Below, in pieces: positions 2,796 to 22,089 of a DNA stretch of 22,089 nucleotides. The first letter of the stretch is position 1. The number at the start of each line of letters is the position of its first letter. The stretch is from a virus, in IMG/VR virus record IMGVR_UViG_3300050821_006630, positions 1-22,089 of that record, one strand, 5' to 3'. The notes beneath the pieces are model-generated. The model had not been told where the DNA came from. It worked only from the letters and a program-made list of their open reading frames with translations, and ran no database searches. The translations under genes were made by a program, and so were the position numbers.

Positions 2796-2981
2796 AATGT
2801 GGTCAAAGATGCAACGAACGGATCTTTCTCTGCTGCTTCAGATGGCTATCTTCTTCCTGCTGCAGTTGTCAGCACGGCTTGTACTGTACAATCTATCAAC
2901 TCCGGTGCCGCCAATGTAGCGGCGAATACGGTCACGGTCATCGTCAACGCGATCGTAGGAATACTGAAAGCTAAAATGTGG
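2784..2981 (+). repeat. 19-bp direct repeats bracketing 160 bp
   Basis: ACTGAAAGCTAAAATGTGG occurs at 2784-2802 and again at 2963-2981. The first copy contains the stop of the upstream gene and a GTG start. The second contains the GTG start of the giant protein gene in the same arrangement. The 160 bp between looks inserted. Confidence 0.85.
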
Positions 2982-3080
2982 CCAATGTTGACAGCCCGAC
3001 GCTCTACAGCATCGCATTTAGTAATGGCGTTGATCAGACGACGCGCGGTCCGCTTGGGCAATCTGCGTCCTATTCGTTAA
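2799..3080 (+). CDS. Small ORF between direct repeats, doubtful
   Basis: A GTG-started frame of 93 codons. The first 60 codons ([20 protein letters not shown], then [20 protein letters not shown]) have the Ser/Ala/Thr/Val-rich look of phage fibre proteins. From about 2975 the frame overlaps the giant ORF and becomes Arg-rich, so the real C-terminus is probably lost. Its start lies in the first copy of a 19-bp repeat and its coding-like part ends at the second copy. It is best read as a fibre-gene fragment inserted at the junction. It may be translated but is probably not a complete protein. Confidence 0.35.
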
Positions 3081-6000
3081 AATTCAGCAATGCCTCACCG
3101 GACGTTACGCAAACCAGCATCACACTTTCGACTGTATGGAAGTTCAGCACCGACCCAACGAACATAGGCCTAACAGCGTCGCCAGCGTGGTCCTCGGTTA
3201 GCTTTAATGATAGCGGCTGGGGCAATCTTAATTCCGGTGCGACCTGGGAAAGCCAGGCACCAGGCATCTATTCTGGTTATGGCTGGTATCGCCAGGACGC
3301 TGTTGTTCTGCAGCCGCAGATGCTCGGTGGGCAGTGGCTTGTCCTGACCCTGGCGCCACTGTTTGGCAATGATGACGTTTATTTCAACGGAACGCGCATC
3401 GGGGGGATCAAAGGCGAATTTCAATATGCCAACAAGAACAAGCGCGTATATTATATCAATCCGAGCCTTGTTCAGCAGACCAACACGATCGCCATACGTA
3501 TGTGGGGCGGCACTCTCGACGGGGGGCCATTTAGCGGGCTCACAGGCGGTCCCTACACCCTTGCGGCCTATACCGGGCAGCTATGGCAGCGCCCGTCTGG
3601 CGGAGCGCTCTCCACCGAAATCCCGATGGAGGCGTACGACCTAAGTTCCGCGCAAAATGGCACCGCATTTGATATTATTGTAAGGCCAAGTATCAATATC
3701 TCGGCAATGACGACGCCGACGCTGTTCTACTCGGTTAACAGCCTTTATGAAAATTCCGTTCTTGCGTCCGGCTCGACGGCAATCGCGCCCGGCTCGGATG
3801 GAATCAACCGCGCCATATGCCACATCAATTCGGCTTTGGCGGTGCAAGTTTATCTAACTGGCAATATCGATGTTGTGTGGAGCATCATCGATGCTGCTCA
3901 GATGCTATGGACGAATACCGGCCAGACCCTTAATATTACTGGGCCTGGGCAGGTTTTGCCGTACACGCTTTGGTCTCGAACTTTTGGTGCAGGGCAAGTC
4001 GTATTGCCGCCCGATGGTCAAGCGCTGATCGTTGGCTCGGCAATGTATACGGTGTTCATACCTGATAACACCGCTGTGATAACTGTTCTGACGGTTGACG
4101 ATACAGGCACAACCGCGGGCGTACCTAACTCAACATATTGGTCGCTTCAATCGAATGCGCAGGTTGGCTCCGCACCATGGGGTGATCTGCTAACATACAC
4201 GTATAGCTCGCTCCCTGGCGTTGTAACTGGCGGTCAGTGGATTCAGGTTGCTACTGGCTCGAAATACTGGGGAGGCAGTCCGCCATCATCTGGACCGATG
4301 GCGACCTTCACGGTCGATCGGACCGCAACGGTCTATATTGCGATCGACAATCGCGCGCCGCTGTTTGGCTTGAATTCCTGGACAGATACTGGGCTACGCG
4401 CGGACGTCAGCCAGCGGCCTACGGCGGGCACTGCCGAGTTTGAATTTTGGGGTCAGTACTGGGCAGCAGGGACTGTCACACTTCCCGTCGATCATGGAGT
4501 GGGCTCGGCCTATGGATTGTATTTTGTAGCCATCCCGGATAACACTGTCGTCATATCTAACATTGTCTTCAACGATGTGGCGAATTCTTCTCACTGGCAT
4601 TTGCTGCAAAATCTGCAGCTAGGCAATCTTTACATCGACAATGGGGTTATTCAGTTCGTTGGTGTCCCGCCCGCATTTCTAGGCTCACAGTGGATTCAGC
4701 CGGCCGATAGCTCCAAGGGATATAAGACGCCGCCCGCGCTAGCGACGTTTACGATCAGCAAAGCTGCTTGGATTTATATAGCGCAAGATACGAGGGTTGC
4801 CGGATCGCCCGGTTCGTCGACCTCGAGCGCGACAAACATATCGTTTGCCACGCGCGACACAACGCAGCTAGCGGCGCTATCGCCAACCCATGAAACTACA
4901 CCATTCGGTTCGCTTAAATTAGTCGATGTCATCACTTGCGGTACGGCGACGATATCAGAGCCGCATCCATACATAGAAACCGGGATTGATCCTTATCCGT
5001 CGGTATCGAAGCATACGCCAGGCGCGGCGACACAATATGGCGCCCCCATTACATCCGTGCAGACGATTCTTGGGAGCCAGGCGCGCGTCTCGAGCTATGG
5101 ACATTTCGGCTACAGGGTTGGTGCCGGCGGCCTGACGGTTGGCAAGCAATATGTGCTGGCGGTCACTTATCCGGAAGACATTCCACGCATTGTCGGAATG
5201 ACGATCAATGCCGGCCTGAATTACTACGATGGCGGCTGGAAAAATGGTCTCAATGGTCAAATCGGCGGGATCTATGATCCCTGGCCGCTGAGCAATGCAT
5301 GGCAGACAAATTATAGCGTTTTCACTCTTGGGAACTTTACCACTGATACCGGTGGTGCTGAAGACGGGGACGCCACTAACGGGGTCTGGGTGTATTTCTG
5401 TGGAATCACCAACCGCAACGGTCCTAACAATCAATTCTGGTGGGTCTATAGCGGTGGCCCAGCGATCGGTCAGATCAAGCTTTACGAAATCGATCCGGTA
5501 GCGAATGCTCCGGTTATCACTTATCCTGGCGCTCTCCCGCGCCGAACTATTACATTCGATTGGGAGCGCGCTCCGGCTCACATACCGTCTGACTTGTGCA
5601 GCTATGCGCAGCTCATGGGCTACAATGCAATCTCGCCGTGTGTTGGGACGAAATGGGGAACGAATCACTACGGCGAGCCGCTTGCCGGCTATAACACTTC
5701 TGGGGAAGATCCGCAGAATTGGCCGATTTTTGTTTCGTATGTTACAGGCTCGAATACTCCGCCAGCTAATCCATTTCCGGCGACTCCATCGCTTCACAAG
5801 CAGTTCCTCGATGCAACAGCCGCGGCGGGGATTGATTATTATCCACGGTTTGAATATGGAGGTTCTTACGATCTCCCGCATACCGCATGGTGTACCAATG
5901 CCGCCGGCACGAACGCAAATCCAGATCGTTATCCAGCCGCGGGGCCGGTAACAGCGAATATTCTGAATTCGGCCGTGCTGACGGAAATAACTGCGCTGTT

Positions 6001-8230
6001 TAATAATATGGTGCAGCCGTACGCTGCCACATATTCACATTTCAAAGGTATGTTGTGGCGTCAGCGCAAAGACACCATGACGATCAGCTATGGCGCCGCG
6101 GATATCCTGCTGTTTCAAACCGACACCGGCAATATGTATCCTGGCGGTGTGCAGCTCGCTCAATATACCGGATCTATCACTCTCACGACTTTGACTGTCA
6201 CGGCGATTTCAAGCGGGACAATCTCCGTTGGCGATACAATCCTCGACGCTTCTGGGAACGTTGCCACTTTAACAAAGATTACCGCCCTCGGAACAGGAAC
6301 CGGAGGGACTGGAACTTACACAGTTTCGAAATCGCAGACAGTTGCTAGCGAGGCAATGTATGATGTTAACGCCGCGGCATTGGCCACATGGGCATCGACT
6401 GGTGCGATTCAGCCGCTCTATGCAACATGGTGGCATACGGAGCGAGCCGAGTTCCACTACGCCGTCCTTGCTCAATTGCAGACCTATCGCAGCGACCTGG
6501 TTATCTGGTATTACAACTGGGATAGTGACAAGTTCGGAATATTGAAGCCGGACATGGACGACTTTCTCGGCGCCTATGTTCCGCTTGAGAATAGCGGCGG
6601 CGCGTCATATTATACGACCGACGATACTGACCGGAATTCATATACCGCAGCACAATATACGACCGCGCTCAGCACAGGAAATTTTGCACCGTCCAATCTC
6701 GGCGTGCCTGCGAGGGCCGATGCGCTCTGGCCTGATTACGCGATTAGACCGTCTCTCTATACAACGCCTGGATTCCGGATATTCGGTCCGATCACGAATA
6801 ACGCCTATGCGCTCCCTGCATACGTTCAATATTTCCAAACGGTCGACGGCGTGGCAATGTCGCAGGCCGAACCATATGCCGATATCGACGCGTACGGCCC
6901 ATATCCAAAATATGAAGCATCACAGATTATTGGTGCTGGGCCATTCAGTATGGCCCTCGAGGTTCAATCATGGGCTTACGGAGATGCGAATCTCCTGAGT
7001 TGGACGCCTTACACTTACGGGCGGGGGTTCGCTGACTATCATCGCTATTTTGCGGCGGCATTCCTGGCGCTGCCGAATATATCAGGAACGACTCTCGGCG
7101 GCATGCCGGCTAACACAACGGTACGGACATACACATCCGGATCAACGACATATGTCGGTGTTGCCTACACAGGACTTTCGTCAGCGACATTAAATCTAAC
7201 AATTCCTGGGCCGTGGGCATTTTCTCCGGCCTTCGCGCTCATTACGGATCTAGTCGCAAATACCACCACCAATGTTCCGGCCGGTAGCACATTGCCATTG
7301 ATGGTCGTGTCCGGTCCAATGCAATTAAATTCATTCTCTATTACGCAAGGATCACAAATGGCCGGTCTAACAGACTATACGGCGCAGGCGCTTTTGAATT
7401 GGGAAACCGGTCAATTAGCGATGCCGGCGCTGCCCTCGGATTGGATTGGGCTGTTCACTACCGCCCCGACAAGCGATCTTGGTGTTACTGGTGCGACAGA
7501 GGTTTCCGGCGGCTCATACGCCAGAATTCAGGCATCTGGTAGCGTCACGGCTGTCTCGGCTACCGGCTCGACGATTACATTTTCCTCACTGCCCTCGTGG
7601 GTCACGGTCGGGATGTCTGTTCGCGATATAACTACGCCAGGCAATGTCCCATCGTCGACAACGGTTACAATTATTGGGACGCCGGCAAACGGCGTAACAT
7701 GCAATAACTCGGTGTCCGGCGTCGGAACTGATGTTATAAGGTTCAGCGCATTTACGCCCGCCTCTGCCTCGAGCGGATCCGAACCGGCGACGGTGCCGGC
7801 GCAGGCAATAACCAACTCTATCATCACATTTGCGCAGGCTACCGCAAGCTGGGGCACGGTGACGGCGGTGGGCCTCTTTGATGCCGTGACCTCCGGCAAT
7901 CTCATCACATGGGATTATATGGGCAATAATAAGTGGTTGCCCTTCTCATGTACCCTGGCGAGCCCAGGGGTATTAACATCTCCGGCGCATGGATACGCGA
8001 ACGGCAACAGCGTGGTCGTATCCTCGAAGCCTGGCGGCACGCTTCCGACGACTGGCGGCTCATGGGCCGGTCTTCTTACCGTGGCCAACGTGGCGACCGA
8101 TACGTTCACGGCGGGCGTCAACACGACGTCGACCGGCGACGGTCTTGTGCGCTTGGTTGCCTCGCAGGTGATCGCCACCAACGTCACAATGTCCATCCCT
8201 GCTGGTTCGCTGATCCTCACCGCGGCATAA
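2978..8230 (+). CDS. Giant tailspike-like protein with glycoside-hydrolase-like region
   Basis: 1750 residues from GTG 2978, which follows an in-frame TAA. Residues about 52-197 look like the sugar-binding jelly roll of GH2-type enzymes: [17 protein letters not shown], then [23 protein letters not shown] and [11 protein letters not shown]. The middle is beta-rich with two similar segments (around 300-430 and 480-620). From about 852 ([14 protein letters not shown]) to about 1385 the sequence resembles a TIM-barrel glycosidase: [51 protein letters not shown] beta sandwich follows to about 1450. Residues 1066-1126 are an inserted Gly/Thr-rich beta domain. Residues 1461-1750 begin [14 protein letters not shown], a separate phage fibre family. 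It is probably a virion depolymerase or receptor-binding spike. The catalytic acids are not established; E and D candidates lie in DWERA and FEYG. Confidence 0.65.
7358..8230 (+). other. Possible internal start: 290-residue C-terminal fibre protein
   Basis: The codon for residue 1461 of the giant ORF is an ATG with AAGGA about 8 nt upstream, and the protein from there begins [20 protein letters not shown]. This is the usual N-terminus of a stand-alone phage fibre family (pattern MAGLTDY..., then '[10 protein letters not shown]' and '[10 protein letters not shown]'). The same gene may therefore yield both the long spike and a short separate C-terminal protein. Two inserts of unrelated beta sequence interrupt the family pattern, at about 7543-7750 and 7935-8160. 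Confidence 0.45.
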
Positions 8231-8239
8231 GGTTTTATC

Positions 8240-8665
8240 ATGGCCATCTTTTCATTAGCGCTGAATACAACGGTGACGACGACCGCGGCTGCGGCAATGG
8301 ATCTTCTGGCGGCGTCAACAGCGAACCCGCGCATTTATGAGGTTAGCGCCAATCTCGGCGCCGCGACGGCATCGACATATGGGCTAGGGCGTGCTGGAAA
8401 TACCCCAGTGCAGACTAGTGGTGTGTTGCTTCTTTCTGAAACCACGCTAGACACCGCGACTACAAAGGCCGCGGTTGCGTGGGGAACCGCCCCGACCGTG
8501 CCGGCGAACTTCTTCCGCCGCATATCGCTTCCCGCTACTATTGGTGCCGGTGTGTTCTGGACGTTCCCGCGAGGCCTTATCCTTGCGGCTTCGGCCGCAA
8601 TGGAATTTTGGAACCTTGCGACGAACTCGGCAAATACTAACGTTCATTGGGTGATCGAAGAGTGA
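8240..8665 (+). CDS. Phage virion protein, tandem paralogue 1
   Basis: 141 residues beginning MAIFSLALNTTVTTTAAAAM. Landmarks are GLGRAGNTPV, the central AVAWGTAPTVPANFFRRISL, and the C-terminal NTNVHWVIEE. The next gene keeps the same landmarks (GMGRASNAPV, AIAWSKAPTVPANYHRL, NLNVSWEIGL), so the two are duplicated relatives. All-beta composition and position among fibre genes suggest a minor virion component, perhaps a trimeric baseplate or fibre subunit. An AAGG lies about 9 nt before the ATG. Its stop overlaps the GTG of the following gene (GTGA). No named family is recognised. Confidence 0.65.
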   Translation: MAIFSLALNTTVTTTAAAAMDLLAASTANPRIYEVSANLGAATASTYGLGRAGNTPVQTSGVLLLSETTLDTATTKAAVAWGTAPTVPANFFRRISLPATIGAGVFWTFPRGLILAASAAMEFWNLATNSANTNVHWVIEE

Positions 8666-9108
8666 GCCGCATATATTCAGCTTCCTCTACAATAGCTGGT
8701 GGATCAGGTATCGCGGCCCCAATATGTGATTTGGAATCATCCGCAGTTGAGTCTCCATCTATCCTGGCTATTGATTTTAGCATAGTTCCAGCTGTTGCCA
8801 ACACGATGACTTTTGGCATGGGCCGAGCATCTAATGCTCCTGTTTCATCATTTGGCATACCGTTTTTAGCTGAGAATCCAATTGACCCAGCTAGCACATC
8901 TATATTAGCGATTGCCTGGTCGAAGGCTCCTACGGTTCCGGCAAACTATCATCGTCTATTTTCATATGTTAATAGTCCGGCTCAATATAATATATACACA
9001 TTTCCGGCAGGGTTCAAGGTCTTGCCTAGCAGTTCATTTGTCGTGTGGGTTGTCGGCACTGCTGGCCGGGCCGCCAATCTTAATGTTTCGTGGGAAATTG
9101 GACTGTGA
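8662..9108 (+). CDS. Phage virion protein, tandem paralogue 2
   Basis: 148 residues from GTG 8662, chosen because it overlaps the previous stop in a GTGA junction, the arrangement also used by the next gene. The earlier GTG at 8647 would overlap more. It begins MSRIYSASSTIAGGSGIAAP, and residues 40 onward are clearly related to the upstream gene, sharing the APTVPANY/F core and the C-terminal N-x-N-V-x-W motif. Base composition is more AT-rich than the first copy, suggesting an old duplication or separate acquisition. Probably a structural partner of the upstream product. Confidence 0.65.
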   Translation: MSRIYSASSTIAGGSGIAAPICDLESSAVESPSILAIDFSIVPAVANTMTFGMGRASNAPVSSFGIPFLAENPIDPASTSILAIAWSKAPTVPANYHRLFSYVNSPAQYNIYTFPAGFKVLPSSSFVVWVVGTAGRAANLNVSWEIGL

Positions 9109-9335
9109 GTCATGCGCAAGATCCTGATGATCTCTGGGGTGATGCCGTTATATCTAAAATTGAGATATGCTGTCGTCGCAATGGTTCGATGAGTGTTGCT
9201 GGATCTATTGATAATTTGCAATACGCTCTTGCGGTTCTCGATAATGCGCGTGATTCCATCAAAAGTTTCCACGCAAGGAGGCGCGCGAATGGGAATGGAT
9301 CGGTCGTCATTCCAGGGCATGATGTAGCTGTATGA
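9105..9335 (+). CDS. Small conserved phage protein, unknown
   Basis: 76 residues from GTG 9105, overlapping the previous stop (GTGA). The core KIEICCRRNGSMSVAGSIDN is followed by LQYALAVLDNARDSIKSFHA, a helix with alternating charge, and a C-terminal VIPGHDVAV. I recall this pattern in small hypothetical proteins of alphaproteobacterial phages, where it often lies between fibre genes and may be non-structural. It ends by overlapping the ATG of the next gene (ATGA). No catalytic motif is visible. The two adjacent cysteines are not arranged as a metal site. Confidence 0.6.
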   Translation: MSHAQDPDDLWGDAVISKIEICCRRNGSMSVAGSIDNLQYALAVLDNARDSIKSFHARRRANGNGSVVIPGHDVAV

Positions 9336-10438
9336 GTTATTTTTTCGGCATGACCCCTGCCACGTATGTAATGGTAGGGGCGTTCGACGAGGAGAGGACT
9401 GCGCTATCACGTCCTGAATGGGCATATCAATGCCGGGTGCTTCATCTTATCCAATCCGCGAATCAGTTTTCGGGCCTATGGCCCGCGAGCAGGATTAGCT
9501 CTGGCGATCCTACGGCGCCCGCTACGCTGCTTGGGCAAGATAGTGGTCAGACTGGCGCATGGGGGCCAATGGAAATAGGGACAATTGGGAACGGTGGCCC
9601 TACGACATTCTTGTCCGGCCGCACGCTGGACGGCAACAGCAACCCTCTATATGGGGTAACGGTTAGGGGATATCGAACTTCCGACAATCTTTTCGTTGGC
9701 CAAACAACAAGTGATGCGAATGCTAATTATTCTCTAGGCGCAGTTTACCCTGGCGTTACGCATTATCTCGAGGCCTATTTCCCGGCCCCAAACCTGCTTC
9801 AGTATTCTCAAACATTCACTAATGCATATTGGAATACTGGCGGCGGCACTTGCACGGTAGGCTCAACGGTTACTGCTCCTGACGGAACGACAACAGCATA
9901 TATTCTCACGGAGGCATCAACTACCGGCAATCATCAACTGCAGCTCACTACTCCATATGCACCTCCCAATGGAACGGCCGGAACATTTATATTTTCAATT
10001 TATGCTAAGTTAGGTACGAGTGCTGATCGTCGGATCTACGTAGGGTTTGCCGATGGTTCTGGCAACGGATGCGTGATAATTTTAAATCTTGCGACTGGTG
10101 TAGCTGGAGATGCTATTATTACATATGGTTCTGGATATAGCGCAGCAAGCGGCGGCATTAATACGGATAGCATAGCAACTGGAGTTGGTGGAAATGGATG
10201 GTATCGCTGCTGGGCGACAGCTTTCACTACCACTAACGCTGTTCAATCTCCTAATTTTGGCCTTGATAATTTGGCGGCGGGCGGCAATACAAATAGTTAT
10301 GCCGGGAACGGGACGTCCAGCATTCAAGTATGGGGAGCACAATTCAATTTCGGCGGAATCCTGAAGCCATATGTTGCAACCACAGCTCTCGTGCCTGATA
10401 TAGTAGGAGCCACAATTAATACGCTTATGCCCGCGTGA
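9332..10438 (+). CDS. Virion protein with carboxypeptidase-regulatory-like domain and inserted binding domain
   Basis: 368 residues. Residues 1-90 (MSYFFGMTPATYVMVGAFDE) form a unit shared with the next gene. Residues about 92-150 (FLSGRTLDGNSNPLYGVTVR, then TSDNLFVGQTTSDANANYSL) resemble the Ig-like carboxypeptidase-regulatory fold. Residues 151-352 are an insert lacking in the paralogue: LLQYSQTFTNAYWN, TAPDGTTTAYILTE, GWYRCWATAF and QVWGAQFN follow the order of the phage LamG/carbohydrate-binding-like domain that typically ends in a 'PY..T' motif, here KPYVATT. The last 16 residues match the paralogue again. It is probably an appendage protein that binds a host glycan. Its ATG overlaps the preceding stop by 4 nt. 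Confidence 0.65.
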   Translation: MSYFFGMTPATYVMVGAFDEERTALSRPEWAYQCRVLHLIQSANQFSGLWPASRISSGDPTAPATLLGQDSGQTGAWGPMEIGTIGNGGPTTFLSGRTLDGNSNPLYGVTVRGYRTSDNLFVGQTTSDANANYSLGAVYPGVTHYLEAYFPAPNLLQYSQTFTNAYWNTGGGTCTVGSTVTAPDGTTTAYILTEASTTGNHQLQLTTPYAPPNGTAGTFIFSIYAKLGTSADRRIYVGFADGSGNGCVIILNLATGVAGDAIITYGSGYSAASGGINTDSIATGVGGNGWYRCWATAFTTTNAVQSPNFGLDNLAAGGNTNSYAGNGTSSIQVWGAQFNFGGILKPYVATTALVPDIVGATINTLMPA

Positions 10439-10447
10439 GGTGGTGAT

Positions 10448-10951
10448 GTGAGCTATCTGTTCGGTATAACACCGGCAACATATGTTCAGGTAGGAGCATT
10501 TGACGAGGAAAGGACCATCCTATCGCGTCCGGAGTGGTCATATCAGAATCGCGCCGTACACCTCGCCACATCCGCACACCAATATGTTGGTTTATGGCCA
10601 ATGAGTAGGATAAGCGCTGGAGATCCCACTACCCCAGCCGCATGTCTCGGACAGGATAGTGGGCAGGCCGGTCAATGGGCACCATTAGAGATCGGTACGA
10701 TTGGCAATGGCGGCCCTACGGCGTTTTTATCTGGCCGCACTGTCGATATTAACAGCAATCCACTTTCCGGTGTTACGGTGCGCGGGTTTAGAACTTCTGA
10801 TAATTTGTTTGTTGGTCAAACGATAAGCGACGCGAACGGGAATTTTCAGCTTGGCACGCCATATCCTGGAGTAACCCACGATCTCGTTGCATACCTTGTC
10901 GGCACGCCGGACACGGCCGGGACTACGGTAAACACTCTTGTCCCCGCATAG
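10448..10951 (+). CDS. Paralogue of the upstream virion protein, without the insert
   Basis: 167 residues from GTG 10448. It aligns from end to end with the first 150 and last 16 residues of the gene before it (MSYLFGITPATYVQVGAFDE, GLWPMSRISAGDPTTPA, GTIGNGGPTAFLSGRT, TVNTLVPA) but has only a few residues where the other carries a 200-residue domain. The Ig-like carboxypeptidase-regulatory pattern is at about 92-155. GAGGTGG lies before the GTG. The likely function is the basic scaffold of a tail or fibre attachment protein, the longer copy being the receptor-binding form. Confidence 0.65.
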   Translation: MSYLFGITPATYVQVGAFDEERTILSRPEWSYQNRAVHLATSAHQYVGLWPMSRISAGDPTTPAACLGQDSGQAGQWAPLEIGTIGNGGPTAFLSGRTVDINSNPLSGVTVRGFRTSDNLFVGQTISDANGNFQLGTPYPGVTHDLVAYLVGTPDTAGTTVNTLVPA

Positions 10952-12654: not shown

Positions 12655-12981
12655 ATGGCAAGAGCCGCAAAGAACTTTCCGGCGATCTATTCGACCGAGC
12701 AAGTCGCGCTGTCATTCAATTTCGCGCCAGCCCTAGCGCCTGGGGAGACGCTATTAACATCGACATCAACACCGGCAGTTTCGGTTGTTGTTGTGGCAGG
12801 CACGGACGCGGCTCCATCCTCGAGGCTTATCGGAACCCCGGTGATAATCGGCCTAGTTGTGGTGCAGATGGTCGGAACTCTGCAGGGCGGTGCAATCTAT
12901 GATTGGAGTGCGACAGTTGGGACAAGTGCGGGGCAGATATTAACCCTAAACTCTCATCAGACTTGCGAGAGTTTGCAGTAA
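12655..12981 (+). CDS. Probable phage fibre-tail adaptor-like protein
   Basis: 108 residues, starting 2 nt after the previous stop. The order FPAIYSTEQVALSFNFAPAL, GETLLTSTSTPAVSVVVVAG, SSRLIGTPVIIGLVVVQMV and then IYDWSATVGTSAGQILTL matches a widespread small beta-sandwich phage family. Its members read 'D...LDF...L..GETI...T...V..G.D..P..ML.G.P.I.G..V.Q...GG..G..Y.....V.TS.GQ.L'. Such proteins are sometimes annotated as fibre-tail adaptors. It is the last gene before a strong terminator, so it closes the appendage operon. The C-terminus (SHQTCESLQ) is slightly unusual. Confidence 0.6.
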   Translation: MARAAKNFPAIYSTEQVALSFNFAPALAPGETLLTSTSTPAVSVVVVAGTDAAPSSRLIGTPVIIGLVVVQMVGTLQGGAIYDWSATVGTSAGQILTLNSHQTCESLQ

Positions 12982-13849: not shown

Positions 13850-14176
13850 ATGCCAAAGATTGGCGGCAATAGGAAAGGCGCCGGGCGGCCACCGGGCGCT
13901 CTTACCAAGCGCTCTCAGGAGATTCGTGCAGAGGCAGTTCTGACTGGCATGACGCCTCTAGAGGTGATGCTGGCCGCAATGCATCATTATCAAGAGCTTG
14001 GAGATTACGATAAAGCCGCTCTGTTCGCCAAAGACGCCGCGCCGTATATGCATCCTCGCCTCGCGAGTGTCGAACATGCTGGCAAAAACAATGCAGCCCA
14101 CGAGCGTAGCTTTACGATAACAATCGGCAATGCGAAGATCAATGAGGAAAAGCGGCCGGCACATTTGGATAGCTGA
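13850..14176 (+). CDS. Terminase small subunit-like protein
   Basis: 108 residues. The N-terminal basic stretch NRKGAGRPPGALTKRSQEIR, then GMTPLEVMLAAMHHYQELGD, then AKDAAPYMHPRLASVEHAG follow exactly the pattern of small proteins encoded upstream of large terminases in alphaproteobacterial phages. The small subunit would bind packaging-site DNA and load the motor. AGGAAAG lies about 11 nt before the ATG. The stop overlaps the next ATG by one base (TGATG), consistent with coupled expression of both subunits. The assignment relies on position and family pattern, not on a visible HTH. Confidence 0.75.
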   Translation: MPKIGGNRKGAGRPPGALTKRSQEIRAEAVLTGMTPLEVMLAAMHHYQELGDYDKAALFAKDAAPYMHPRLASVEHAGKNNAAHERSFTITIGNAKINEEKRPAHLDS

Positions 14177-15417
14177 TGCACTACGAAAGGCCAGTCCTCT
14201 ATCAGAAACAGAGGGCGGCGATATTCGAACCGAAGGACTCGTTAGGAGAACCCGCCAGGTTCTCGCTAACCGAGGCATCAACTAAGACCGGGAAAACGGT
14301 AGGCTGCATTGCTTGGCTGTTCGAGCAGGCTTTAAAGGGGAAGGCGGGTCAGAATTATTGGTGGATTGCTCCCGTATTCGGGCAGGCGCAAATTGCCTTC
14401 CGGCGCATGAAGCTAGCGGTGCCTATGGATCTTTACCAGAGTACCGAAGTACCGCCCATGATAACGCTTGTGAACGGTACAATTATCACGTTCAAGTCGG
14501 GGGAAAAGCCTGATGGGCTATATGGAGAGGATGTTTTCGCCGCCGTTATCGACGAAGCGTCCCGCATGCGTGAGGAAGCTTGGCATGCGCTACGCTCGAC
14601 CCTTACCGCGACCCGCGGACCGGCACGCATCATTGGCAACGTTAAGGGCCGCAAGAATTGGTTTTTCGCGCTCTGCAGGCGGGCAGAGGCCGGTGAGGCC
14701 GGGCTTAGCTATCATAAGCTCATCGCGGCCGACGCGGTCAATGCAGGGGTGCTTGCGGATGAAGAGGTTGCGGACGCACGGCGCATCCTTCCTGACGCTG
14801 TATTCCGTGAGCTGTACCTTGCTGAGCCCTCTGACGATGGCGGTAATCCGTTCGGGCTAGCCGCAATTGCGCGGTGTGTAGAGCCGCTGGCCGCGACCAC
14901 GCCCGCTGTGTGGGGATGGGATCTTGCGAAGCATATCGATTGGACCGTGGGGGTTGCTCTCGATGAATATGGGCGAGTGTGTCGTTTCCATAGGTTTCAA
15001 GGATCGTGGGACAACACTATGGAGCAAATCATCGCCGCAACCGGGTCGACGCCAGCACTCGTTGATTCTACCGGAGTCGGCGATCCGATTGTTGAAATAC
15101 TGCAAAAGCGTCCAGGAACGAGATTTGAGGGATATAACTTTAGCTCTTCCTCCAAGCAAAAGCTAATGGAGGGGCTTGCGGTCGCGATCCAGAAAAGGGA
15201 AGTGACATTCCCGGACGGACCGATTCGAATGGAACTGGAAAATTTTGAGTATGAATATACGCGGACCGGCTGTCGATATACCGCGCCGGAAGGGTTCCAC
15301 GATGATTGCGTTTGCTCTTTGGCATTGGCCAATCAGCATAGAATGCACGCATCACGGCCGCTTGTGATTAGCGACGACGTTCTTAGATGGTCTGCCGCGG
15401 GCGGGCGAAGGTGGTAG
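14176..15417 (+). CDS. terL: Terminase large subunit
   Basis: 413 residues: the DNA-packaging ATPase and nuclease. The Walker A region is EASTKTGKTVGC, with Ala in place of the first canonical Gly, as in this subfamily. Walker B with the catalytic carboxylate is VFAAVIDEASRMREEAWHAL at about residues 120-138. A coupling motif is visible at GPARIIGNVKGRKN. The RNase H-like nuclease domain begins near 245 (VWGWDLAKHIDWTVGVALD), continues with LVDSTGVGDPIVEIL, and ends with the conserved FHDDCVCSLALAN near 370-383, giving the metal-binding Asp residues. Length is normal for the family. It moves DNA into the prohead through the portal encoded two genes later. Overlaps the small subunit stop by one base. 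Confidence 0.93.
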   Translation: MHYERPVLYQKQRAAIFEPKDSLGEPARFSLTEASTKTGKTVGCIAWLFEQALKGKAGQNYWWIAPVFGQAQIAFRRMKLAVPMDLYQSTEVPPMITLVNGTIITFKSGEKPDGLYGEDVFAAVIDEASRMREEAWHALRSTLTATRGPARIIGNVKGRKNWFFALCRRAEAGEAGLSYHKLIAADAVNAGVLADEEVADARRILPDAVFRELYLAEPSDDGGNPFGLAAIARCVEPLAATTPAVWGWDLAKHIDWTVGVALDEYGRVCRFHRFQGSWDNTMEQIIAATGSTPALVDSTGVGDPIVEILQKRPGTRFEGYNFSSSSKQKLMEGLAVAIQKREVTFPDGPIRMELENFEYEYTRTGCRYTAPEGFHDDCVCSLALANQHRMHASRPLVISDDVLRWSAAGGRRW

Positions 15418-15674: not shown

Positions 15675-17408
15675 ATGAAAGGAGCCGTGACAAGCCGCCG
15701 CAAGCCTGTGCCGACGCAAGGCCCCATTATTACCGACTCGGTTCTCGCCTTCTCGTCATGGCCTCAGCGTGCTCCCGTTCAGCCATTTACAGTTCCAGAG
15801 CATCCTCCTGGTGTTGTACCATCCGGCCGCGGCATGGCGATGGATGATAGCCTTAATGGCTCATTATCATGGGCGGCATCCAGCTTAACTGGATCGATGT
15901 ATCTCGGCGCCGATCATTTTATCGGCTACCCGGAGTTGGCCTTGCTTGCCCAGCGTCCGGAATATCGCCGGGTTTCCGAAACCATCGCAACCGAGATGAC
16001 GCGAAAGTGGGTTCGCTTTCAAGCTGTTGGGGATTCGGACAAGACAGACAAAATATCTAAGATCGAGGCTGCATTCGAGCGATTCCATATCCGGGATATC
16101 TTTCGAGAGGTTGCCGAGCAGGATGGCTTTTTCGGCCGCGGCCATATTTATATCGATCTCGGAACAACCGAGGATCCTGATGAGCTAAAGACGCCCATTG
16201 GCGATGGGCATGACAAGGTAAGCGCCGCCAAAGTAGGTAAGGGATCGCTCAAGGGATTCAAGACTGTCGAGGCAGTCTGGTGCTATCCGATGAATTATAA
16301 CGCTCGCGATCCGCTGGGCGATGATTGGTATAATCCTGGCTCATGGTTTGTCATGGGCAAGGAAATTCATGCATCTAGGCTACTTACATTCATTGGCCGT
16401 GAGGTTCCGGATCTTCTCAAGCCGGCATACTCATTCGGCGGACTATCTCTATCGCAGATCGTCATGCCGACAGTTGAGAGTTGGCTTAGAACCAAAAAAA
16501 GCGTCGAAGAGCTAATTCACTCGTTTTCTGTTAGCGGCATTATAACCAATCTTACAGATCAGTTGAATTCTAACCCGGATTCTGCAACCGGACTACATAG
16601 GCGGGTTCAGCTATTTAATAATTTGCGCGATAACAAGGGTCTGATGGTTTTGAACAATCAGGCTGGGGCTGAAGGGGAGGAGTTCTTTAACGTTTCGACG
16701 CCGCTCGGGACTCTTGATCACCTGCAGGCTCAATCACAAGAACATATATGTAGTGTGTCAGGCCTTCCGCTAATTAAATATACCGGCATCACTCCATCAG
16801 GGCTTAATGCATCGTCTGAAGACGAAATTAGATCATTTTATGATTGGGTACATTCCTATCAGGGATTATTGTTTTCATCGGAATTAACAACTGTTCTCGG
16901 CTTTATACAGCTGAATGAATTTGGTTCCGTCGATCCGGAGATAACATTCGAGTATGAGCCGCTTTGGTCGCTCGATGAAAAGGCTCTTGCTGAGAAGCAA
17001 AAGATCGAAGCGGACACAGACCAGATTCATATTGCGACCGGGGTTATTGCGCCTAGCGAAGCTCGCCAGCGGGTAGCCGGCGATCCAGACACGCCATATG
17101 CTGGATTGAACCTGAGCGATGAGCCTGGCGCGCCGGATAAGAAGGTCGAGTATGGCGCGAAGGCCACTACGGCGGTGGTCGAGGCATTCACTGCGGGCCT
17201 GATCAGTCATGCTCAGGGGTTGAAAGAACTTCTCGAATCGTCGAAAGAATCTGGAATTTTCACGACCATCACGCCGGAAGATATTAAGGAAGCCGAGGCC
17301 GAGCCGCCACCTTCAGAAATGGAAATGATGGAAGCGCAGGCAAAACTTAAGATGCAACCGCCGGATGGCGGAATGCCGAAGCCGACAGGCAATGGTGGTG
17401 AGGATTAG
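15675..17408 (+). CDS. Portal protein, DUF1073 family
   Basis: 577 residues. The family's core is seen in NGSLSWAASSLTGSMYLGAD, then FIGYPELALLAQRPEYRRVS and ETIATEMTRKWVRFQA, followed by DGFFGRGHIYIDLG and later GLPLIKYTGITPSGLNASSE with DEIRSFYDWVHSYQ. These are hallmark DUF1073 portal features. The dodecameric portal would sit at one vertex, pass DNA and bind the terminase and head-completion proteins. The C-terminal 40 residues are acidic, with M/Q/P-rich low complexity. It follows the Usg-like gene by 4 nt and precedes a small gene by 2 nt. The N-terminal 40 residues are proline-rich. The ribosome binding site before ATG 15675 is weak. Confidence 0.9.
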   Translation: MKGAVTSRRKPVPTQGPIITDSVLAFSSWPQRAPVQPFTVPEHPPGVVPSGRGMAMDDSLNGSLSWAASSLTGSMYLGADHFIGYPELALLAQRPEYRRVSETIATEMTRKWVRFQAVGDSDKTDKISKIEAAFERFHIRDIFREVAEQDGFFGRGHIYIDLGTTEDPDELKTPIGDGHDKVSAAKVGKGSLKGFKTVEAVWCYPMNYNARDPLGDDWYNPGSWFVMGKEIHASRLLTFIGREVPDLLKPAYSFGGLSLSQIVMPTVESWLRTKKSVEELIHSFSVSGIITNLTDQLNSNPDSATGLHRRVQLFNNLRDNKGLMVLNNQAGAEGEEFFNVSTPLGTLDHLQAQSQEHICSVSGLPLIKYTGITPSGLNASSEDEIRSFYDWVHSYQGLLFSSELTTVLGFIQLNEFGSVDPEITFEYEPLWSLDEKALAEKQKIEADTDQIHIATGVIAPSEARQRVAGDPDTPYAGLNLSDEPGAPDKKVEYGAKATTAVVEAFTAGLISHAQGLKELLESSKESGIFTTITPEDIKEAEAEPPPSEMEMMEAQAKLKMQPPDGGMPKPTGNGGED

Positions 17409-17828: not shown

Positions 17829-18349
17829 TGACTAATACGCTTTGGGATCCGAACATTGGCAATGTTGCGAATCCAACCCTTGCCTCGGCGACGATCAATT
17901 CCCTGACTGCGCCTATTTTAACGGTCACTGCTCTCACTGCGCCTACTTTAACGGTTGGTTCGGTAATTGATTCGGCCAGCGGAATTGCTGGGAAAACGGA
18001 TTTTCAGCAGAGATTAAGTTTGCCAGTCACGGCGGTCACCAATACTGATTATACAATGTCGGTCCCGGTCGGCGCGACGATTATGACAATTTGGGTTTAT
18101 ACGACAACGGCATACACTGGGACCACCGCTAATATTTCGATTGGCAGTGCTGCAGCCGGTGCACAATATGTTGCGGCCACTGATATCCATGCTGTTGGTA
18201 TTGTCCAATTGACATTTGCGGCTGGCGGCACCGCCGGACTGCTCTCAATGCCTGCCGGTACGCCAAATCTCTTTATTAGGATTGCGCAAAGCACGACGCC
18301 GACCGCGGTTGGCGCTGCAACGCTTGTTGTTGATTACACACAGGCGTGA
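17828..18349 (+). CDS. Beta-rich virion protein, unknown
   Basis: 173 residues. The N-terminal 20 (MTNTLWDPNIGNVANPTLAS) are followed by a Thr/Ala/Leu repeat (LTAPILTVTALTAPTLTV) and then a body of alternating hydrophobics (DYTMSVPVGATIMTIWVYTT, TPNLFIRIAQSTTPTA). No catalytic residues stand out. Its start overlaps the preceding stop by one base and its stop overlaps the next GTG by 4 nt. It is likely a head decoration or head-spike protein, given its place between portal and MuF-type genes. Confidence 0.6.
   Translation: MTNTLWDPNIGNVANPTLASATINSLTAPILTVTALTAPTLTVGSVIDSASGIAGKTDFQQRLSLPVTAVTNTDYTMSVPVGATIMTIWVYTTTAYTGTTANISIGSAAAGAQYVAATDIHAVGIVQLTFAAGGTAGLLSMPAGTPNLFIRIAQSTTPTAVGAATLVVDYTQA
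17906..17955 (+). repeat. Tandem 30-bp-period repeat inside the structural gene
   Basis: ACTGCGCCTA followed by one variable base and TTTAACGGT occurs at 17906-17925 and 17936-17955 with 19 of 20 matches. The repeat stays in frame and adds a second LTAP-x-LTV unit to the encoded protein. Confidence 0.8.
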
Positions 18350-19107
18350 ATGTTCATAGTTCTTCTTTCAAGCGCCGCGGTTCGCAGCCGCCGCTTCTAA
18401 AAGCCTTCCTTCGTGCCCGCAAGGCGGAAACGCAATTCGCGATCCGGCTACGCAAGATTGCTTCGCACATTGGGGATATTGTTCGTGGGTTTGATCCGTC
18501 AACTAGTGACGGATGGATTCAAATGCATGCGGCGCTCGATCGCTATGCCCAGCTCATTGAACCATGGGCGCGCGCGGTTGCGAATCGGATGATCACGGAA
18601 GTTGCGGCGCGCGATAAGCAGACCTGGCGAGAGGTGTCTAGCCAGATGGGCAGGGCGCTCCATCAGGAGATCGAATATGCGCCGATTGGCGCTACAATGC
18701 AGCGGCTATTAAGCGAGCAAGTTCACCTAATTAAGAGCCTGCCACTTGACGCCGCGCAGCGAGTTCATGAACTTACGATAGAGGGCATCCAGCAAGGCAC
18801 GCGGGCAAAGGACATTGCTACCGAGATCATGCGGACCGGCGAGGTCAGCAAAAGCCGGGCCACTTTGATTGCTCGGACTGAAGTAGGGCGCACCGCAACG
18901 GCACTGACGCAAGCCAGGGCGCAGTTTGTTGGTTCAGAGGGTTACACCTGGGCAACGGTGCGAGATAGCGACGTAAGGCCTTCCCACAAGGCTATGGAAG
19001 GCAAATTTGTTCGCTGGGATAGCCCGCCAACTCTCGACGGTTTAACAGGCCATGCTGGGGCGCTTCCGAATTGCCGATGCGTGCCCTTGGTGATTATCGC
19101 ATCCTGA
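18346..19107 (+). CDS. Phage head morphogenesis protein, MuF/SPP1 gp7 family
   Basis: 253 residues from GTG 18346. The C-terminal MuF domain is clear: SRATLIARTEVGRTATALTQ, then YTWATVRDSDVRPSHKAMEG, KFVRWDSPPTLDGLTGHAG and LPNCRCVPLVI, with the conserved R, H, G and CRC positions. The N-terminal half is helical. Members are minor capsid proteins needed for prohead assembly and may be ejected with DNA. The GTG overlaps the upstream stop by 4 nt. No C-terminal toxin or effector domain is fused, which some MuF proteins carry. Length is standard for the short form. Confidence 0.88.
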   Translation: MNVHSSSFKRRGSQPPLLKAFLRARKAETQFAIRLRKIASHIGDIVRGFDPSTSDGWIQMHAALDRYAQLIEPWARAVANRMITEVAARDKQTWREVSSQMGRALHQEIEYAPIGATMQRLLSEQVHLIKSLPLDAAQRVHELTIEGIQQGTRAKDIATEIMRTGEVSKSRATLIARTEVGRTATALTQARAQFVGSEGYTWATVRDSDVRPSHKAMEGKFVRWDSPPTLDGLTGHAGALPNCRCVPLVIIAS

Positions 19108-19125
19108 AAGATGAGGAGTAAGCCA

Positions 19126-19500
19126 ATGTCTGAATCCATAGAGCGCATTGAAAACATGATCCGCGTCGTGAGCGAAATTGCAGATGATAGGTTCGATATT
19201 AAGCGGTGGTTTGACTATCGTTCCGGATGTGGCTGTGCGATTGGCCATGCTATGCAGGACGCTTACTTTGTAGCGCGGAGATTTACCCCCCCTCTTGGGC
19301 GCAGGGATGTGTATGAATTTGTTGCCGATTATTTTGGCATTAGCGAAACCCGGGCAACGCAGCTTTTTGTCATCGGAATTGGGTACGAAACGCGATTAGA
19401 CGTGCTTGCTGGGCTTCGCGTATTGCTGCTTGAGAAAATAGCTCAAGAGCTTCCGGCGATGCTCGGCCCAGTTTGGGCAGTAGAACTTGAATTAACTTAA
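19126..19500 (+). CDS. Unknown protein with CGCAIGHA motif
   Basis: 124 residues from ATG 19126, chosen over ATG 19111 because AGGAG sits 8 nt before it and inside the longer version. The sequence RWFDYRSGCGCAIGHAMQDA resembles small phage/bacterial proteins with a C-x-C-A-x-G-H/W-A motif. A helical C-terminal half (DVYEFVADYFGISETRATQL and LDVLAGLRVLLLEKIAQE) follows. The Cys/His cluster at about 34-42 may bind a metal, but only three ligands are evident. It ends exactly one base before the protease ATG. Function unknown. Confidence 0.6.
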   Translation: MSESIERIENMIRVVSEIADDRFDIKRWFDYRSGCGCAIGHAMQDAYFVARRFTPPLGRRDVYEFVADYFGISETRATQLFVIGIGYETRLDVLAGLRVLLLEKIAQELPAMLGPVWAVELELT

Positions 19501-21324
19501 ATGCCAATTAAGCAATGCAAGTTGCCAGACGGCGGCGACGGCTGGCAATGGGGCGATGCCGGCAAGCGCTACGCCGACCGGGCCGATGCTGAAAAGCAGG
19601 CCGCGGCGGCGCATGCTAATGGCTATACGGGGGATGAGTGGTCCGAAGAGGCACGCAAGGCAGCATTAGAGGCTAGGAGAGCAAAATCTGGCGGAAACAA
19701 AGAAGACGACCATGATAAGGAAAAAGAACAACATGAGATCAGCGCCCGTCTAAAAAAAACGACAGAGCGCGAGACAGCGTTCCGTCATGATACAAATTAT
19801 AAGCGACTGATGGAAGCCAAAAAGGAAGACAAGCACAAAATTGTTGCAGAAATGTCTCCAGCCGAAGCCAAATTACATTTAGAGAGATTGAATTCCGCTC
19901 CTGGCGACGATCCGGCTGCTCGCAAAGCGTTAGAATCTAAAATCCAAGCGCATGACGCTCTAGCGCTCGACAAAGCCTCGGTTCGCACCATTGATGTCGA
20001 TGGCCATCTACACATTGCCGAAAGCAATATCTCCAAAGCTACTGTCAATCCATACATCGGCCGCGAAATCCCGGATTGGAAAGAACTAGGGCTCGATGGT
20101 GATCGAATCTATTATCTACTCCGCGATCCGGCGGAATTAAAAAAGGCCGTCGATACCTTTGACGGTAAGCCACTGCTATTCAAGCATCGCCCGGTCGATG
20201 CCGATGACCATGCTTATGACACGGTTGTCGGTGCGGTTTACAATCCTGTATTTGATGCTCCATTCCTCAAAGCTGAATTGGTTGTTTGGCCAGGCAAGGC
20301 CATTGATGCAATCGAGGATGGCTCAAAGCAAGAGCTTTCATGCGGATATCGCTATAAAGCTGATATGACTTCTGGAGTTTACCAGGGGCAGGCTTACGAT
20401 GGCGTTATGCGAGAAATCCAGGCAAATCATGTTGCGTTAGTTGCGGAGGGGCGCGCCGGTCCCGAGGTTGTTGTCGGCGATTCCAATGGAGAAATAATCA
20501 TGTCTAAGACCGTATTGAGCCGCAAGGCCGCTGTGGCCCAAGGCGCACTCCTAGTTTATCTGCGGCCGAAGCTGGCGCAGGATGCAAAGATCGATCTTAC
20601 GCCCATCCTTGCGAAGATCACCAAAGACAATTTCAAGGACAGCAAGCCGAGCATCATTACGGCGCTCTCGGAGCGGACTAAAGGAAAACTCGCCCAGGAT
20701 GCGTCCATAGATGACGCCGGCTCACTTCTCGATTCCATTGCCGCACTTGATATCGCCGAGGATGAGGAAAAAGATATGCCAAAGAACGCGGCCGAGGACG
20801 ATTGGGACGACGAGGACGATAAGAAAGAAAAGGCCAAGGACAAAAAGAAGTCCGCGAAAGACGCCGACATGGACGATGATAAGGAAGACGACAAGGACGA
20901 GGAAGAGCAGGAGCCAAAAGGCAAGGCTAAGGACAAGAAAAAGGGTGCCAAAGATGGCGAGCCTGACGACCTTGTGACAAAGCCCGCCATGGATGCGGCA
21001 ATTGCATCGGCCGTGAAGACCGCGACGGCATCGGCGATCAAGACCCAGCGTGACATTCGCGATGCGGAGCGTGTGGCCCGTCCTTATGTCGGCGAGCTAG
21101 CCATTGCCCATGATAGCGCGATTGACGTCTATCGCACCGCGCTCGATGCCATGGGAATCAAGACTGATGGCATTAACGAGCTTATTGCGCTCAAGACCAT
21201 CCTGGAAATGCAGCCTAAGGCTTCCGATCCAAAGGCAAAGGCGCCGCGGGTTGCCATGGATGCCGCGGGAGCAAAGTCGTTCTCGGAGATGTTCCCAGAC
21301 TCGGCAAAAATCCGGATTATGTAA
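19501..21324 (+). CDS. Prohead protease-scaffold fusion (DUF2213 protease)
   Basis: 607 residues. Residues 1-45 (KQCKLPDGGDGWQWGDAGKR) are a short extra domain of a type seen near phage head genes; 46-170 are charged and helical. Residues about 175-330 form the DUF2213 protease: ISKATVNPYIGREIPDWKEL, KHRPVD with His229, QELSCGYRY with Ser280, and QANHVALVAEGRAGPEVV with His310. These are likely catalytic-centre residues of the capsid maturation protease. From 334 on the sequence (MSKTVLSRKAA) is scaffold-like, with a very acidic/Lys-rich low-complexity stretch at about 420-485 and a helical end. A nested scaffold start is likely. It sits directly upstream of the cement-like gene, with the major capsid gene expected further on. 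Confidence 0.82.
   Translation: MPIKQCKLPDGGDGWQWGDAGKRYADRADAEKQAAAAHANGYTGDEWSEEARKAALEARRAKSGGNKEDDHDKEKEQHEISARLKKTTERETAFRHDTNYKRLMEAKKEDKHKIVAEMSPAEAKLHLERLNSAPGDDPAARKALESKIQAHDALALDKASVRTIDVDGHLHIAESNISKATVNPYIGREIPDWKELGLDGDRIYYLLRDPAELKKAVDTFDGKPLLFKHRPVDADDHAYDTVVGAVYNPVFDAPFLKAELVVWPGKAIDAIEDGSKQELSCGYRYKADMTSGVYQGQAYDGVMREIQANHVALVAEGRAGPEVVVGDSNGEIIMSKTVLSRKAAVAQGALLVYLRPKLAQDAKIDLTPILAKITKDNFKDSKPSIITALSERTKGKLAQDASIDDAGSLLDSIAALDIAEDEEKDMPKNAAEDDWDDEDDKKEKAKDKKKSAKDADMDDDKEDDKDEEEQEPKGKAKDKKKGAKDGEPDDLVTKPAMDAAIASAVKTATASAIKTQRDIRDAERVARPYVGELAIAHDSAIDVYRTALDAMGIKTDGINELIALKTILEMQPKASDPKAKAPRVAMDAAGAKSFSEMFPDSAKIRIM
20500..21324 (+). other. Probable nested scaffold start within the protease gene
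   Basis: The ATG at 20500 (residue 334) is in frame and preceded by GGAG 8 nt upstream, a strong site. The product would be 274 residues: the scaffold without the protease. It matches the arrangement of lambda C/Nu3, where a scaffold is made from an internal start inside the protease gene. The junction lies just after the DUF2213 domain ends. Confidence 0.6.
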
Positions 21325-21346: not shown

Positions 21347-22089
21347 ATGTCTTTTCAAACTTCTGTTGCAACCGTTCCGGCGCCCGGCGTAGAAGGTGAC
21401 TGGGCGAGTTCCAATGTTCGTATGTTCTACCCTGCCGGCCCCGGCGGATTGGTTACAGGCGCCGCCGGCCTTACCATCGGCCGATTTGCCTGGCTTCAGC
21501 CATCCCCGCTCGATCCAAACGGGGCGCCGACAATTGCCAATAACTTTGGCAGCGGTCAGCCGGCTGGGTTTGTTCATCGCGAATATCAGGGTCTTTTGAC
21601 AATATATTTGGCGGAAACCAGCTATCTGATTCCGCCTGGTTTCGGCTGTTCATTGATGACCGGCGGTGACATTTGGGTCAAGAACAATGGCACAACCGAA
21701 GTCATCTATGACACATTTGCCTATGCAAACTATGCGGACGGCAAGGTGTCGTTTGGTGCAGCGGCATCTGGCGCCACCGCGTCTGGTTCGGCTTCGTCAA
21801 TCGCGGCCGGAACCGGCAGCGCCACGGGCACGATAACCGGAAATATCGCAACATTCGGAACAGTCACCGGAACAATGAATCCAGGCGGAATCCTGACAGG
21901 AACCGGTGTTGCGACTGGCACGACCATTGTTGCACAGCTCACGGGCGTGGCTGGGGCAGCTGGCACCTACTCCGTGAGCATTCCAGACCAGGCCGTCGCG
22001 TCCACGACCATCAGCGAAACTCATGGTGTCCTGACGGTTGGGGGCACTATTGTCGGCGCTTTCGGCGTTGGCGACGTTCTGTCTGGCAG
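21347..22089 (+). CDS. Cement/decoration-like protein with repeated beta domain, partial
   Basis: Open from ATG 21347 (AAAGGA about 9 nt upstream) to the right edge, at least 247 residues. The N-terminal part (MSFQTSVATVPAPGVEGDWA, ASSNVRMFYPAGPGGLVTGA, GLTIGRFAWL, GFVHREYQGLLTIYLAETS, IPPGFGCSLMTGGDIWVKNN) follows the phage structural cement protein family, small proteins that lock the capsid. At about residues 156-223 a Gly/Thr-rich unit begins (GTGVATGTTIVAQLTG, GAAGTYSVS, AVASTTI). After it a second copy appears to start (HGVLTVGGTIVGAFGVGDVL). This would make the protein longer than plain cement proteins. The same kind of unit is in the tailspike at 6173-6355. The C-terminus is unseen. 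Confidence 0.7.
   Translation, partial: MSFQTSVATVPAPGVEGDWASSNVRMFYPAGPGGLVTGAAGLTIGRFAWLQPSPLDPNGAPTIANNFGSGQPAGFVHREYQGLLTIYLAETSYLIPPGFGCSLMTGGDIWVKNNGTTEVIYDTFAYANYADGKVSFGAAASGATASGSASSIAAGTGSATGTITGNIATFGTVTGTMNPGGILTGTGVATGTTIVAQLTGVAGAAGTYSVSIPDQAVASTTISETHGVLTVGGTIVGAFGVGDVLSG

Follow-up and report, generated by a model that had tools for sequence, protein, structure and literature searches.

Does the 1750-codon open reading frame (ORF) of a virus contig encode one large enzymatic spike, or an enzyme and a fibre protein side by side, and from where did its enzyme-like part come? The window, i.e. the whole stretch of DNA that was analysed, is the 22,089-base virus record IMGVR_UViG_3300050821_006630, in which the ORF runs uninterrupted from a GTG start over positions 2978-8230 (+). 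An earlier note, made from the sequence alone, had seen here a 1750-residue spike of new architecture, with a jelly roll, beta modules, a TIM-barrel-like region and a phage fibre family at its C-terminus; the single open frame, its length and its start codon are confirmed. We think it fairly probable that the locus holds a phage depolymerase captured from a bacterium of the Planctomycetota-Verrucomicrobiota (PVC) group, in an exchangeable slot next to a Gp80-like fibre gene that has its own start. Residues 1 to ~1456 would be an enzyme acting on polysaccharides, from a TIM-barrel family that as yet has no name; taken from a Planctomycetota/Lentisphaerota-type bacterium, it would then have been enlarged by two insertions, one of tandem beta modules and one a small, mobile beta domain of phage type. 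Residues 1461-1750 would be a Gp80-like fibre subunit. The jelly roll and beta modules would bind a surface or matrix glycan, which the barrel would cleave.

Searches of phage, plasmid and structure records gave no lead to the enzyme: tblastn against phages and plasmids, up to E=10, did not place the barrel, which had no match in the PDB (phmmer) or NCBIfam either, and scanning viral and genome contigs for exact peptides gave nothing, nor did a scan of viral contigs for the pattern PRxEYGGSxxLP. Relatives were reached with a DNA pattern for LxVxYPEDxPR (residues 727-737), a motif of a kind that occurs in PVC proteins. Scanned over a genome collection of 84,980 bacterial and archaeal species, it hit 91 loci, many in Planctomycetota, Verrucomicrobiota and Lentisphaerota. 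Homology was tested by phmmer, independently of the choice of motif: residues 608-1456 matched L152 at E=1e-112, also L144, L099 and ~30 more distant proteins down to E=1e-20. Extending the search to the genomes in which these loci lie, and to further genomes from those phyla, yielded closer relatives (L178, L179, L180, L185, L188; 42-45% identity), which matched the full phage protein at E 1e-191 to 1e-220, the best being L188, L178, L179 and L180 (1e-208 to 1e-220, 43-45% identity). A whole-protein match of E ~1e-220 to bacterial homologues is, by sequence comparison, not a chance one. It falls into three blocks (38-307, 608-1059 and 1134-1455), and phage residues ~38-307 and 608-1456 can thus be assigned to a group of uncharacterised secreted Lentisphaerota/Planctomycetota proteins within a larger PVC family.

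Across that YPEDxPR/TIM-barrel family the matches range from E 1e-112 to 1e-220 at 31-45% identity and cover the YPED domain, barrel and sandwich; no Pfam, NCBIfam or PDB match was found for it. Close homologues (E<=1e-30) occur in 5/289 and 1/294 genomes sampled from two phyla, and some Lentisphaerota and Planctomycetota genomes carry several family members each. In the tree, the phage sequence nests within the bacterial clade (support 91/99 inside a 100/100 group) on a long branch of 1.42. The bacterial homologues inspected have signal-peptide-like starts, judged by eye, and their gene neighbours include CBM9, SASA esterase, sulfatase, GH43, GH31 and a GntR regulator, together suggesting that the bacterial family takes part in polysaccharide breakdown. 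Two alignment-based scans of IMG/VR and a WREEMADG pattern retrieved no other viral copy of the enzyme, although these needed exact short motifs and divergent copies could escape them. As an observation in its own right, the loci L087-L177 bear a large PVC family with both WREEMADG and YPEDxPR motifs, a candidate new glycosidase-like family.

The bacterial alignments also set the domain limits. Residues 1-307 (2978..3898, +) comprise a short N-terminal lead, a GH2_N-like jelly roll (~38-187) and a beta domain. Residues 38-307 match L188 225-488 (iE 5e-45), residues 41-187 align with the GH2_N domain of L152, and the jelly roll weakly resembles that of the carbohydrate esterase 9h4u (E=0.003), bearing out the jelly roll of the earlier note. 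Residues 608-850 (4799..5527, +) form a further beta domain, recognised by homology and the motif scan, which bears the invariant YPEDxPR (731-737) and is probably carbohydrate-binding. L188 488-921 aligns with phage 608-1059 and adjoins the 38-307 match without a gap; the 608-1059 and 1134-1455 blocks are likewise contiguous in L188, so phage residues 308-607 and 1060-1132 are insertions. The former (3899..4798, +) is a pair of tandem beta modules, in which 308-480 and 475-615 are repeats of 38% identity (E=4e-16); thus the proposed beta modules exist, but as an insertion relative to the closest homologues. A distant relative of the modules, itself tandem, occurs in a large protein of G128, a genome from the same phylum sample (E=3e-5). 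The latter insertion (6155..6373, +), of 73 residues, is missing in all aligned bacterial homologues; it matches phrog_21413 (residues 1061-1134, E=2e-11), whose type of domain recurs in ~20 loci of related phages, and is therefore a mobile phage domain. A weak match of the same type (E=0.009) lies at residues 158-223 of a minor head protein at the far end of the window.

The insertion splits a barrel into a first half with beta1-beta4 (residues 851-1059, 5528..6154, +) and a second half with beta5-beta8 (residues 1133-1370, 6374..7087, +), followed by a C-terminal beta-sandwich (residues 1371-1456, 7088..7345, +) where the bacterial alignments end. An AlphaFold model of residues 618-1457, built with 33 sequences, has mean pLDDT 73.8 and pTM 0.81, and one of the L152 barrel alone, which lacks the insertion, 83.2 and 0.87; predicted secondary structure gives eight beta/alpha units and then the sandwich. 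Residues 618-1457 are accordingly modelled as a (beta/alpha)8 barrel with a C-terminal beta-sandwich, and the predicted TIM barrel of the earlier note stands, not as one unbroken region but interrupted by the phage-type insertion. Foldseek against the PDB returned mainly glycosidases (glycoside hydrolase, GH, families GH36/27, GH13, GH66 and GH30), with best E 2e-11 and 9e-9 for the two models. The glycosidase flavour claimed earlier is borne out at the level of the model, as a carbohydrate-active type of TIM-barrel protein in a phage tail module.

Conservation was judged over the 33 sequences. The invariant charged residues are E733, D734, R737, R856, E863, E959, R1028, R1030, E1328 and R1356; W1151 and W1152 are also invariant and kept in the phage, and 40/47 positions invariant among the 32 bacterial homologues are retained despite 22-37% overall identity. 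Four conserved acids belong to the barrel. In the model, E863 (5564-5566) follows beta1, E959 (5852-5854) lies on beta3 and D1302 (6881-6883), the counterpart of a bacterial Glu, follows beta7, with E1328 (6959-6961) in the helix preceding beta8, and these acids are placed at or near the C-terminal ends of the barrel strands; beta4 bears the two invariant arginines R1028 and R1030. The catalytic acids of glycoside hydrolases lie on beta4 and beta7 in clan A and on beta4 and beta6 in clan D. The named families GH13, GH66, GH30, GH27/36, GH31 and GH2 were rejected, having no profile match and conserved acids on other strands; no glycosidase-barrel profile of Pfam or NCBIfam hit the phage protein or any of the 33 members at E<=1, and neither phage barrel nor family matched PDB sequences. 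The earlier note could place the barrel in no named family; it does have relatives, which are bacterial and unnamed. The architecture is new only in part: jelly roll, YPED domain, barrel and sandwich already occur together in bacteria, and what is new is their presence in a phage and the two insertions.

The match to the bacterial homologues stops at phage residue 1455/1456. After four more codons comes M1461 (ATG 7358), and residues 1461-1750 (7358..8230, +) form a Gp80-like fibre gene of 290 aa that shares the frame of the enzyme. Pfam finds a single family in the 1750-aa ORF, PF23140 (Gp80; residues 1464-1564; 59.9 bits, cut-off 27), and phrog_240 matches 1459-1567, so the phage fibre family noted earlier is present. 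A Shine-Dalgarno sequence, AAGGA (7347..7351, +), lies 6 nt upstream of ATG 7358. Matches of at least 5 nt precede 2/93 ATGs in any frame of the ORF, M1461 being the sole in-frame one; a strong Shine-Dalgarno sequence is missing before several other genes of the phage, so its strength by itself does not decide the matter. M1461 also falls, in alignment, on residue 1 of the free-standing Gp80-like genes of L082 and L016, and identity to free-standing viral homologues is ~40-69%. A scan of viral contigs gave 68 Gp80-like loci, 60-odd with a usable match, and in none of the 60-odd was the corresponding Gp80 start preceded by a large open frame; a few of them matched in the C-terminal half only, so that their starts were judged less directly. 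Thus the fibre family is probably not, as had been proposed, the C-terminus of the same spike: the ORF probably encodes an enzyme of 1456-1460 residues and a separate 290-residue Gp80-like protein from M1461, and of the "1750-residue spike" the frame holds and the single protein probably does not, unless a fusion is made. The simplest reading is probably two adjoining genes whose separating stop codon was lost in this record; as there is a single contig, the absence of a stop may be a sequencing error. Among other phage loci inspected, a 770-residue ORF upstream of Gp80 (L226:2088-4397) ends in an ADP-ribosyltransferase domain, and L222:695-3733 is a 1013-codon open frame with NUDIX and anti-CBASS Acb1 matches.

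In the nearest phage identified, G001 (loci L002, L213, L082), the proteins for terminase, portal, head morphogenesis and protease share 87-92% identity with their counterparts in the window. Its homologues of ORF 1826-2377 (75%) and of Gp80 (53%) flank a 456-aa GH16-like protein (L213:4259-5626) rather than the 1456-residue enzyme. That protein matches GH16 at E=3e-4, just under the Pfam cut-off, with the motif EEDIME, and has near its start a stretch that by eye resembles a signal peptide, MKYFGGNILALIAIVLFPLSGSA; it is possibly a secreted phage-encoded glycanase. The comparison suggests that carbohydrate-active enzymes are swapped at one site between close phages. Near the enzyme start, a 28-nt direct repeat (89%) occurs at 2784-2811 and 2963-2990, each copy around a GTG start, with a 59-residue fragment encoded between them (2799-2975); the repeat may mark a recombination junction of the enzyme cassette. 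One further gene differs in position: 19111-19500 lies between head genes here, and its homologue L213:5622-5966 (42%) lies between the GH16-like enzyme and Gp80, so this gene has changed place.

Several points weigh against a captured depolymerase with a separate fibre gene. Foldseek TM-scores over the query are 0.14-0.46 at 7-13% identity, i.e. the likeness is at fold level only and indicates no named glycosidase family, and among the records searched no family member has a known activity or solved structure, so that we infer glycosidase function from fold and context. Position 1302 is E in 32/32 bacterial homologues and D in the phage, a substitution that could alter activity if the residue is catalytic. 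Attachment of the enzyme to the virion would also have to be supposed, and the frame, open across the enzyme/Gp80 junction, allows a fused product. Indeed the 1750-residue fusion could itself be the functional product, with the Gp80 domain at its C-terminus anchoring the enzyme to the virion; the uninterrupted frame and the few codons between the bacterial C-terminus and M1461 fit this, and it would account for how an enzyme lacking a recognisable phage anchor joins the particle. It is nevertheless very unlikely, given that none of the 60-odd viral Gp80 relatives is joined to a large N-terminal part, that M1461 has a Shine-Dalgarno sequence and equals the homologous start, and that enzyme and Gp80 are separate in the sister phage. 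Alternatively both products are made from a nested gene, GTG 2978 giving enzyme-tipped subunits and ATG 7358 plain ones, which would let one ORF fix the proportion of armed and unarmed fibre subunits. The open frame with its well-placed internal start agrees with this, as do the bead-chain fibres of phage A-1(L), with many plain subunits and a distinct distal one (PMC10966104), and the naming of PF23140 for a fibre protein of podophage GP4; yet one base change could recently have joined two ordinary genes, the A-1(L) parallel is one of organisation, and both products are predictions from sequence. We regard this as quite unlikely, and give the same low credence to its extended form, in which the barrel of a nested two-subunit gene would represent, for the first time in a virus, a glycosidase family lacking a named counterpart.

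The barrel might instead be catalytically dead and serve as a glycan-binding adhesin, i.e. a receptor-binding protein. Relative to the wide family the phage has changed E1302 to D, W899 to G and D994 to N, and its branch is long; but E863, E959, E1328, both barrel arginines and the 40/47 invariant positions are kept, and several of the nearest bacterial proteins likewise have N at 994, leaving D1302 alone as unusual among the acids. We hold a dead barrel to be very unlikely. A soluble enzyme, freed at lysis to help progeny escape through matrix or to feed the host, and not a spike at all, deserves somewhat more credit and is still unlikely. Residues 1-1456 are built like secreted bacterial enzymes, no Pfam or PHROG match indicates a virion-anchoring domain at the ORF N-terminus, and the same-slot GH16-like enzyme of the sister phage has its signal-peptide-like stretch; the phage protein, however, has no obvious signal peptide, its gene belongs to the fibre/tail module, with Gp80 as its neighbour and a Gp77-like adaptor not far off, and one of its domains is of a mobile phage type that also occurs in proteins of related phages. 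The context of the bacterial homologues, the nesting in the tree and the place in the fibre module together lead us to favour the captured phage depolymerase, whether attached to the particle or not; it would cleave a glycan, and Gp80 would be translated from its own internal start.

The surroundings of the ORF are those of a phage structural module, given the nearby head and packaging genes: terminase (14176-15417, +), portal (15675-17408, +), Mu F-like head morphogenesis (18346-19107, +), head maturation protease (19501-21324, +) and minor head protein (21347-22087, +), the last running past the contig end. The Gp77-like fibre-tail adaptor (12655..12981, +) is tentative (PF23148 E=0.006, 17.6 bits, cut-off 27) and is 57% identical in the sister phage. 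Just downstream of Gp80 are two neighbouring small paralogous genes, 8240-8665 and 8647-9108 (36% identical), and then 9332-10438 and 10448-10951, whose common N-terminal stretch of 133 residues at 77% identity suggests recent partial duplication. Portal relatives among named phages belong mostly to Proteobacteria phages, at <60% identity; a PVC-host search with the window portal protein gave no match in 241 genomes of one PVC phylum, which shows little. A chimeric contig is unlikely, since synteny with G001 holds on either side of the cassette.

Depolymerases and Gp80-type fibres are familiar from phages, as are tail proteins with TIM barrels; what is new to us is the captured family, with its insertions, and its continuation in frame into a fibre gene. 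Through this locus a gene of phage depolymerase type is linked to a large PVC family that awaits assignment, so that one biochemical characterisation would serve both. It also documents an enzyme slot in the fibre module, filled by a GH16-like or a barrel enzyme in phages with ~90% identical head genes. Lastly, what a gene-finder reports as a 1750-residue spike can be two genes, and the own start of the fibre protein matters for expression work and annotation.

The usual fold of phage depolymerases is the beta-helix. Barrels do occur in phage proteins, and the matches in BFVD, Acinetobacter phage IMEAB3 W6ASE7 and Goslar A0A482GKF4, are 8-9% identical and have only the general fold in common with ours. 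GH13, GH66, GH30 and GH27/36 likewise have a barrel followed by a beta-sandwich (Foldseek E 1e-11 to 1e-8) but differ in the strands that carry the conserved acids and give no Pfam profile match. In the RcGTA megatron, a peripheral TIM-barrel domain provides an example of a barrel-like fold in a tail protein (PMC13420450). The neck fibre of phage A-1(L), gp82-gp81-gp80, is a multi-gene bead chain whose distal subunit has a carbohydrate-binding module (PMC10966104); it has no barrel enzyme, and its likeness to the window genes is one of organisation. Phage residues 1461-1750 belong to the Gp80 family PF23140 (podophage GP4 fibre I protein); the other copies examined are free-standing genes, and this one continues the frame of an enzyme gene upstream. 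The PVC proteins (L188, L178, L179, L180, L185; L152, L144, L099) differ from the phage enzyme in lacking 308-607 and 1060-1132, in having a signal-peptide-like start and extra N-terminal sequence, and in E at 1302; they share with it the order of jelly roll, beta domain, barrel and C-terminal beta-sandwich, and the same conserved acids and arginines.

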